In this document: positions 16,458-49,917 of the stretch, in pieces
Layout of the letters: every line of letters starts with the position of its first letter
Numbering within the stretch: the first letter of the stretch is position 1
Origin: Catenovulum maritimum
GTDB taxonomy: Bacteria; Pseudomonadota; Gammaproteobacteria; Enterobacterales; Alteromonadaceae
Length of the DNA: 64,000 nucleotides
Assembly (NCBI RefSeq): GCF_001050375.1
Contig: NZ_KQ130491.1
Coordinates: forward strand, 62,001 to 126,000
Direction of reading: 5' to 3'
Translations under genes and position numbers: made by a program
Notes under the pieces: generated by a model
Database searches by the model: none
What the model saw: the letters and a program-made list of their open reading frames with translations, nothing else
What the model was told of the DNA's origin: nothing

Positions 16458-16504
16458 TTCTGTATTTTAGCTCTATAATGCCAATCCATCCTAATTATTG
16501 CTCA

Positions 16505-16608
16505 ATTTTACGGGTTAAAAAGCACGTAAACTGCGTTATGAATTTTGCTATTAGTTTACTAGTTGCGGCAACTCATGCCTTGTTAGCGCACTTTTTTCTA
16601 CGTAAAAT
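16505..16608. repeat. Imperfect inverted repeat of about 104 bp
   Basis: ATTTTACG at 16505 and CGTAAAAT at 16601 form the ends. The pairing continues inward imperfectly over about 25 bases (A-rich run then GCACG on the left, GCGCAC then T run on the right). Between sspB and hinT there is no gene, so this may be a small palindromic repeat element. Copy number cannot be judged from one window. Confidence 0.4.
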
Positions 16609-16644
16609 ATAGATCAACAATTTAGGTGAACTGGTATAACGATT

Positions 16645-48318: not shown

Positions 48319-48874
48319 TTTTGGCATTTATTACTTAGCAGGCGGTGAAATACAGTTCTCCGGCTTAACGCTATTTTTTCAAAATATTAGGCTAGAACCA
48401 ATAATATCCAGCTCCAGCAGCATCCTAGTCAGGATAACGATTAATAATAAAGCCTTTTTATAAGCATAGCTGTTGCGCCTGCTATTTAATTATGGCCAAA
48501 GTTAGAGCTAAACTAAGAGGTTAATCTGCAGAAATGTAGGTGTAAGCTTTAAGGTTACTTATTTTATACCTGATACTGAGAGATTGATTTCGTAGCTGTT
48601 TGGATAATTTAGTGGCGGCAGACGAAAGTAGAATAATCGAATTCACTTGAATCAGATAAATTTATAAATCAATTAAATAAAAATCGAGCACATTTAGTTA
48701 AACCTTAAATTTAAATTCAATTTATGAAAAACAATTGTGGCTTTCGTTTTCGCTTGTGAGTATATTAATAAAAGCTTAATACGCTTGTTTTGATTGCTTT
48801 TTATACAGAAATAGTTTGTTTTTTCGCTGAATAAATAAAAACGAAAAAAAGCTTAAATTTCTTTGAAAAAAAGG
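48319..48874. other. Gap between ychF and the tRNA operon
   Basis: I see no gene here. TGCAGAAATGTAGG at 48527-48540 and AGAGCTAAA at 48504-48512 resemble short parts of the inverted-repeat element at 49487-49752, so this could be the remains of a related copy, but the match is too short to be sure. The last 100 bases are very AT-rich and lead into the tRNA promoter. Confidence 0.3.
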
Positions 48875-49115: not shown

Positions 49116-49190
49116 TGGGATATCGCCAAGCGGTAAGGCACCGGGTTTTGATCTCGGCATTCCCAGGTTCAAATCCTGGTATCCCAGCCA
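49116..49190 (+). tRNA. tRNA-Gln (TTG), copy 1
   Basis: A 75-base tRNA with encoded CCA, anticodon TTG at 49148-49150. It starts with T paired to A in the acceptor stem, as in E. coli tRNA-Gln. Confidence 0.95.
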
Positions 49191-49221: not shown

Positions 49222-49296
49222 TGGGATATCGCCAAGCGGTAAGGCACCGGGTTTTGATCTCGGCATTCCCAGGTTCAAATCCTGGTATCCCAGCCA
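49222..49296 (+). tRNA. tRNA-Gln (TTG), copy 2
   Basis: Identical to copy 1 over its full length, 106 bases downstream (anticodon 49254-49256). The met-leu-gln-gln order recalls the E. coli metT-leuW-gln operon. No strong terminator is visible after it. Confidence 0.95.
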
Positions 49297-49486
49297 TCAT
49301 ATTTCTCATCTTGTTTTATCACCTTACAATTTAATATTTCACTTTTTTTATTTACTTACTCTTATAACTTATAATTCGCTTTAGCTATTTATTTTTCGTT
49401 TCCCATACTTCTATTTTATCTTCTTTAATCGTTAACACTCACAGATAATATTTTGCAGTCATATCGTCAGCTATCTAAAGTTTCTA
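49297..49486. other. AT-rich stretch after the tRNA operon
   Basis: Contains no gene, clear terminator or repeat that I can see. The next feature is the inverted-repeat element. Confidence 0.3.
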
Positions 49487-49752
49487 TAGAGCTAAATCAA
49501 TATAAATTGCGAGTATCAGAGCCATCACAGACAGTTCAATTCAAGGCGTATCATTGCAGGAATGTAGGCACCTTTCAAAATGATACAACACAGAAGTGAG
49601 CTGTCTGTGAGGCTCCTGAAAGGCTGGGCTAAAAGCCATTTATTCTGCGTTAAGTTGGCTTGGCATAGAACCACTATGCCTGTGCCAACTTGCCTTGCCT
49701 TAATGGCTTTTATCTCCAGCTGATTATCGCTATTTATATTGATTTAGCTCTA
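49487..49752. repeat. Nested inverted-repeat element of about 266 bp
   Basis: Outer arms of about 33 bases (49487-49519 and 49720-49752) pair with few mismatches, including AGAGCTAAATCAATATAAAT against its complement. Inside are two further hairpin domains. The first is GAGCC..CACAGACAG (49519-49534) with CTGTCTGTGAGGCTC (49601-49615), enclosing GTATCATT/AATGATAC. The second is TAAAAGCCATT with AATGGCTTTTA, enclosing AAGTTGGC/GCCAACTT and GGCATAG/CTATGCC. The whole folds as a three-way junction. It has no credible gene. It may be a non-autonomous mobile element (MITE-like) or a structured RNA. Confidence 0.7.
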
Positions 49753-49917
49753 CATACCGAGCAAATAGCCTCAGGAAGCCTTAATAAAGGTTTGTGTGTA
49801 ACTTGGATATCTCGGCTTGAAATTGGATTTAAGCTTGAAGTAGGCGAGCCTAGGCTGTTTTCAGCTGCTTTAAGATTTAATTTGGATTAATTTTTAACAG
49901 ACTAATTCTAATAGGCA

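Follow-up and report, generated by a model that had tools for sequence, protein, structure and literature searches.

A gammaproteobacterial MITE family carrying an inverted pair of conserved, covarying hairpin modules

REPINs, the repeats of the REPIN/RAYT system, are inverted pairs of strand-specific hairpins that occur at high copy number. In attC sites, variable stems are combined with short fixed boxes on a folded single strand, and the R boxes pair with each other. As for elements bounded by TA, ERIC (also IRU, RU-1 or MITEEc1) has TA termini and duplicates its target (PMC2229807, Table 1). Repeats of the RUP/IS630-Spn1 type have terminal inverted repeats (TIRs) and a TA target, and movement in trans by the IS630 transposase is proposed for them in an excerpt of the same source. 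According to an excerpt of PMC6267812, MITEPlu5 of Photorhabdus, which is related to ERIC, resembles CCC-type IS630 ends. The element described here lies in a stretch of 64,000 nucleotides of Catenovulum maritimum (contig NZ_KQ130491.1), hereafter the window. Like ERIC, it is small, gene-free and strongly folded, and it has TA termini. Its parts, together with a second element of the window, are given below; R1 and R2 are covariance models of the hairpin module.

49487..49752, no strand: whole element, made up of 264 bp and the duplicated TA, recognised by its arms, its fold and 11 near-full genome copies
49487..49519, plus strand: left TIR, TA at 49487-49488
49520..49616, plus strand: module 1 (hairpin), CAAGGC at 49542-49547 and AACAC at 49587-49591; R1 92.8 bits, R2 92.9 bits
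49617..49621, no strand: linker TGAAA, 5 nt, flanked by CC and GG, at the mini-hairpin position
49622..49719, minus strand: module 2 (hairpin, inverted), CAAGGC at 49697-49692 and AACGC at 49651-49647 on the minus strand; R1 93.1 bits, R2 89.7 bits
49720..49752, minus strand: right TIR, TA at 49751-49752
16474..16638, minus strand: single-module element of the same superfamily, older, module at 16508-16604; R1 54.3 bits, E 5.9e-11

A preliminary description of the locus had proposed a 266-bp nested inverted repeat without a gene, either MITE-like or a three-way-junction RNA. The structure is real. Two arms of 33 nt each (91% complementary) enclose two hairpins, and the fold of positions 49470-49770 reaches -131.6 kcal/mol. 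Shuffled versions average -73.7 (sd 5.3), which gives z = -11.0, and none of 100 matched the observed stability. The element contains no credible gene, the only overlapping frame being a mechanical 66-aa ORF at 49690-49890. In an Rfam search of the window, only tRNA reached the gathering threshold, and the lone match at E<=1, to mir-72, is not credible (16.6 bits against a threshold of 60). Four tRNA genes precede the element, with 190 bases between the last of them and its start. The tRNA genes had been regarded as a landing region, an idea that the other copies do not support: a tRNA gene lies within 1.5 kb of none of the 11 (ten near-full copies and one of 231 bp). Upstream, two identical tRNA-Gln genes (49116-49190 and 49222-49296) lie within a 79-bp perfect direct repeat with a spacing of 106, which looks like a recent duplication.

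Other places in the window were compared as well. The element at 16474-16638 has diverged, TA-ended arms, and its outer limits were set by eye. Pieces of similar sequence had been noted at 48504-48540. They do share 10 bp exactly with the TIR start and 13 of 14 positions with a loop, but the likeness is at chance level (best E 0.11) and the covariance model detects no module there, and the reading of this place as an element relic was rejected. For 14-mers resembling the TIR with at most two mismatches, about 1.15 are expected in the window and one was seen outside the element. Directly after the ychF-like gene, an inverted repeat joins 48320-48344 and 48476-48500 (25 nt, 80%, 131 nt between the arms). 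No module was detected in it by covariance model, and its fold z is only -2.0.

The genome of C. maritimum (4.5 Mb, 47 contigs) holds 11 near-full copies, 97-100% identical to the window element and 95.5-99.3% identical to one another, as well as many fragments. The element is not a single-copy sequence, and it has homologues, with whole-element matches at E<=1e-5 in 11 of 60 genomes, the own genome included. The exact 19-base element end occurs in 31 stretches of named genomes, 26 of them Catenovulum. Outside chromosomal sequences, the window element had one plasmid match, on a Pseudoalteromonas megaplasmid (71.8%), and one class-wide element had none; the phage search gave no match for either. 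The flanks differ between copies. TA stands at both ends in 10 of the 11 near-full copies, and the exception (L004) lacks one T at one end. Around 22 Catenovulum copies, the neighbouring frames are convergent in nine cases, co-directional in ten and divergent in three, as judged by a rough ORF calling that missed both interrupted genes. The 16-bp end TAGAGCTAAATCAATA also occurs alone many times in the own genome, with no partner in reach, for instance at L033 3289, L037 3000 and L040 3028, all on the minus strand.

The two interrupted genes provide the evidence for target choice. Queries were built from twenty flank pairs, each joined through one TA, and run against the own genome and six further Catenovulum genomes. 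For the copy interrupting a DUF3465 gene, the empty site was found in a relative (G007) as a gap-free match of 390 bp (79.7%) with a single TA. In another genome (G005), a copy interrupts a DoxX gene whose reading frame runs through the site without a stop if a single TA is retained. Taken together, the empty site and the open frame indicate that the element inserts at TA, the target-site duplication asked about in the preliminary description. On this evidence the insert is either 264 bp with TA duplicated or, just as well, an element ending in TA that was placed beside one. Among the remaining joined queries, the matches that crossed or touched a junction were all weaker (e.g., 71% with gaps in G006), so the case for TA is carried by two sites. 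At 49487-49752 itself no empty site was found: seven Catenovulum genomes have the hslU of this locus at 72-77% identity, but no tRNA gene adjoins it there, and there is no synteny with the relatives at this site. With its multiple copies, TIRs, TA at both ends and two interrupted genes, the window element is almost certainly a non-autonomous mobile element (MITE), as the first reading had supposed.

The middle of the element proved to be its conserved part. Both hairpins are inverted versions of one module of about 98 nt. In an alignment of 24 modules, AAGGC and AAC are invariant and their neighbours nearly so, the stems are variable, and CAAGGC and AACGC form a fixed internal loop. Both sides are altered with the pair kept in some sequences for 28 of the 29 predicted pairs, and 92.4% of the cells pair in the right register. 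The covariation score amounts to 0.935; shuffles give 0.237, and none of 500 comes up to the observed value. Sliding the structure along the alignment gave at most 0.227; this control leans in the structure's favour, because the structure was derived from the same sequences, but the gap is still large. The junction shape is conserved, and a small CCC/GGG hairpin forms an extra arm in many members. The three-way junction of the preliminary description was correct in shape; the structure may act as RNA or as single-stranded DNA. Rfam 15 holds no credible match for the module, and no published description of it was found in titles and abstracts, among which few subscription journals were covered.

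The module is widespread. Of 60 genomes in the wider group, 39 have R1 matches (E<=0.01, at most 69 candidates scored per genome); the own genome is among them and has 66. Class-wide, R2, built from 150 of 159 matches (E<=1e-4, 11 candidates scored per genome), detected the module in 120 of 369 genomes, again with the own genome included, and in 96 of 272 sampled genera. The loci inspected share a plan: a TA-bounded arm of about 33 bp, a module, a CC-NNNNN-GG linker, an inverted module and a second arm. A few loci have a single module. The arm starts vary across the class (TATACC, TAATACC, TAGTACTCC, TAGTGT and others). Among 47 distinct elements, 46 were measurable and 44 of these have well-paired arms; an automatic rule placed TA at or near the outer edge in 34 of the 44, at most one base off in 28. 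The linker is 4-6 nt long in 57 inverted module pairs, and 5 nt in 46 of them. In 55 of the 57 pairs, module and partner were assigned to separate sequence clusters; the pair is therefore old and not a fresh duplication. In some genomes of other families, superfamily elements stand side by side (L254 1188-1597, L258 1501-1859). A 47-nt hairpin-like insert was seen inside the module 2 loop of one element (L069 1501-1813, G001), and a module with extra length similar to this insert in another (L238 441-585, G005). The covarying module with its fixed internal loop, conserved across much of the class, is what is new here.

The modules also show a strand preference. After removal at 85% identity, 93 of 105 modules were left, and in module orientation they contain 138 G.U against 16 A.C, counted in an alignment of related sequences made by a covariance model that prefers G.U. 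The class-wide subset (53 of the 93) gave 88 against 11, and no A.C-rich column left out along the register was found. In elements oriented by their linker, the G.U:A.C counts are 38:3 and 50:9, each module read on its own strand. The TIR arms have no excess (10 G.U and 10 A.C distinct events). An excess in the modules that is absent from the arms suggests that each module has been selected to fold single-stranded on its own strand. Module 2 of the Catenovulum family, counted on the plus strand in the structure of the plus-strand fold, has 14 G.U against 8 A.C, which is the wrong direction. As for the linker, 30 of 48 distinct sequences contain C(UNCG)G when read on one strand and C(GNA)G when read on the opposite strand. 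Loops of the UNCG type in RNA and of the GNA type in DNA are exceptionally stable.

Reduced copies exist too. Nine short copies (34-74 bp) keep at most a few module bases. Two others (158 and 159 bp), each with one module, come from two species and have an identical breakpoint. The flanks of these eleven do not align with one another and represent unrelated places. The alternatives are that the ends alone are enough for movement or that slippage at hairpins has repeatedly removed the same piece.

The search for the mobiliser centred on transposases and on partners with the same ends. A partner insertion sequence with the same ends is usual, but not obligatory, for the label MITE. In seven Catenovulum genomes (the own one minus some small contigs), inspection by eye found no matching inverted ends 0.8-4 kb apart; one pair of ends at 0.76 kb consists of two copies around an assembly gap. 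No autonomous partner was seen in the Catenovulum end lists or the exact 19-mer search. The genes shared by the neighbourhoods of 58 loci were mostly translations of the element plus one loosely similar family, and no transposase was recognised among them. No IS630 transposase (PF13358) was found in the eight Catenovulum genomes; in the wider set, 9 of 60 genomes have one. Across the class it is unrelated to the modules (33 of 120 module-bearing against 61 of 249 other genomes, p 0.53, uncorrected for genome size and relatedness), and IS630 was rejected as the mobiliser on both counts. Y1_Tnp is enriched (98 of 120 module-bearing against 143 of 249 other genomes, raw p 4e-6, likewise uncorrected) and has one copy in the own genome; 22 of the 120 module-bearing genomes have no match to it.

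The explanation that we consider probable is a MITE whose movement in trans relied on a TA-specific transposase and whose modules are kept for folding as a single strand. The transposase would have Tc1/IS630-like chemistry and is not visible in this genome. Each module would be retained since it works when folded as a single strand, with CAAGGC 5' and AACGC 3'. The likeliest reason for its conservation may be a structure-specific contact between a host or transposition factor and the CAAGGC/AACGC internal loop, a contact that could involve either nascent RNA or exposed single-stranded DNA. Owing to the inversion, the module that comes first is a correctly read one on either strand, and likewise in a transcript entering from either side. 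Several points weigh against this explanation. No transposase with matching ends turned up, and the strand counts come from a model that prefers G.U and run the wrong way in module 2 of the Catenovulum family. Palindromes can also be maintained by template switching without any function, copies with one module or none stand at unrelated places, and only two empty sites are clean.

The strongest alternative is an ordinary IS630-derived MITE whose interior is left over and stays palindromic only through template switching or gene conversion, with modules devoid of function. The TA target and the deletion derivatives agree with it, as do the TATACCC ends of sister elements alongside the likeness of the ERIC-related MITEPlu5 to CCC-type IS630 ends reported in the excerpt of PMC6267812. 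This origin is nevertheless unlikely: fixed CAAGGC/AACGC boxes and a constant linker geometry in 96 of 272 genera are unexpected for left-over sequence, and PF13358 was detected in none of the Catenovulum genomes and is not associated with the modules in the 369 genomes of the class.

Still less probable is a REPIN-like route, in which a Y1 (HUH) transposase mobilises hairpins of folded single-stranded DNA in inverted pairs and puts them beside TA with no true duplication. The inverted pair of strand-specific hairpins fits this route, a TA-ended element beside TA would look the same as a TA duplication, and the Y1_Tnp enrichment and the copy in the own genome point the same way. The enrichment is, however, the uncorrected one given above, close to a fifth of the module-bearing genomes do without a Y1_Tnp match, and conserved TIRs with TA ends are unlike REPINs. 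Hardly tenable is a structured RNA gene, itself non-mobile, that spread by genomic duplications. The strong covariation and the linker loop, of UNCG type on one strand in 30 of 48 distinct linkers, speak for it; against it stand flanks that are unrelated to each other, TA at the ends, modules on opposite strands, the insertions within two genes and the empty site at the DUF3465 gene, which contradicts it.

Returning to the MITE with modules kept for folding, the findings bear on how such repeats are seen. MITEs are usually viewed as transposon ends around a middle without meaning, whereas in this element it is the middle that is conserved. Its geometry and internal-loop motif persist over many gammaproteobacterial genera, and the stems and ends vary. 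With the search model, the questions of what moves ERIC-type repeats and why their folding is kept become testable, and annotators gain a model for repeats outside the coverage of Rfam.

The closest comparison is with ERIC. Sister elements with a core 70-73% identical to the window element have TATACC or TATACCC ends. In three of them (L065, L070, L075), one end is identical to an E. coli ERIC end at 24 of 28 positions and to the consensus at 25 of 28; the other sister ends listed reach 16-23 of 28 against the E. coli copy. By comparison, the best 28-mer of the window has 18 of 28, and 15 window 28-mers with the same first bases have at most 17. ERIC is 127 bp long with an ERIC core, in contrast to the 266 bp and two modules of the window element. 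The ends of the latter (TAGAGCTAAATCAATA) also differ from ERIC ends, the TATACCC type being present in sisters and not in the window element. Neither R1 nor R2 detects a module in the E. coli ERIC copy, and membership in the ERIC family was rejected by both models. ERIC does hold CAAGCG and AACGCAG in module order, a likeness noticed after the fact and shared by 243 of 100,000 random sequences. In its way of working the window element resembles an ERIC-type MITE, and its sisters have end types in common with ERIC, but it is not classed as ERIC. A bolder proposal is that CAAGGC/AACGC is a class-wide single-strand motif, carried as an inverted pair on mobile elements with different ends and recognised as RNA or single-stranded DNA by a putative conserved factor, and that ERIC is a reduced, single-module descendant of the same stock. 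We regard it as tentative, with the balance tilting somewhat against it.

The other known systems each share some features with the element. Like RUP, it has a TA target and TIRs, and it differs in its interior, a conserved module pair, and in that no PF13358 match was found in the eight Catenovulum genomes. With attC sites, the module has in common its variable stems and short fixed boxes; judged on attC features by description, it differs in that CAAGGC and AACGC do not pair with each other except for one G-C, and in the TA-ended inverted arms. With REPINs, module elements share the inverted pair of strand-specific hairpins and the high copy number; they are set apart by modules of about 98 nt, TA-ended arms of about 33 bp and the 22 of 120 module-bearing genomes that have no Y1_Tnp match.
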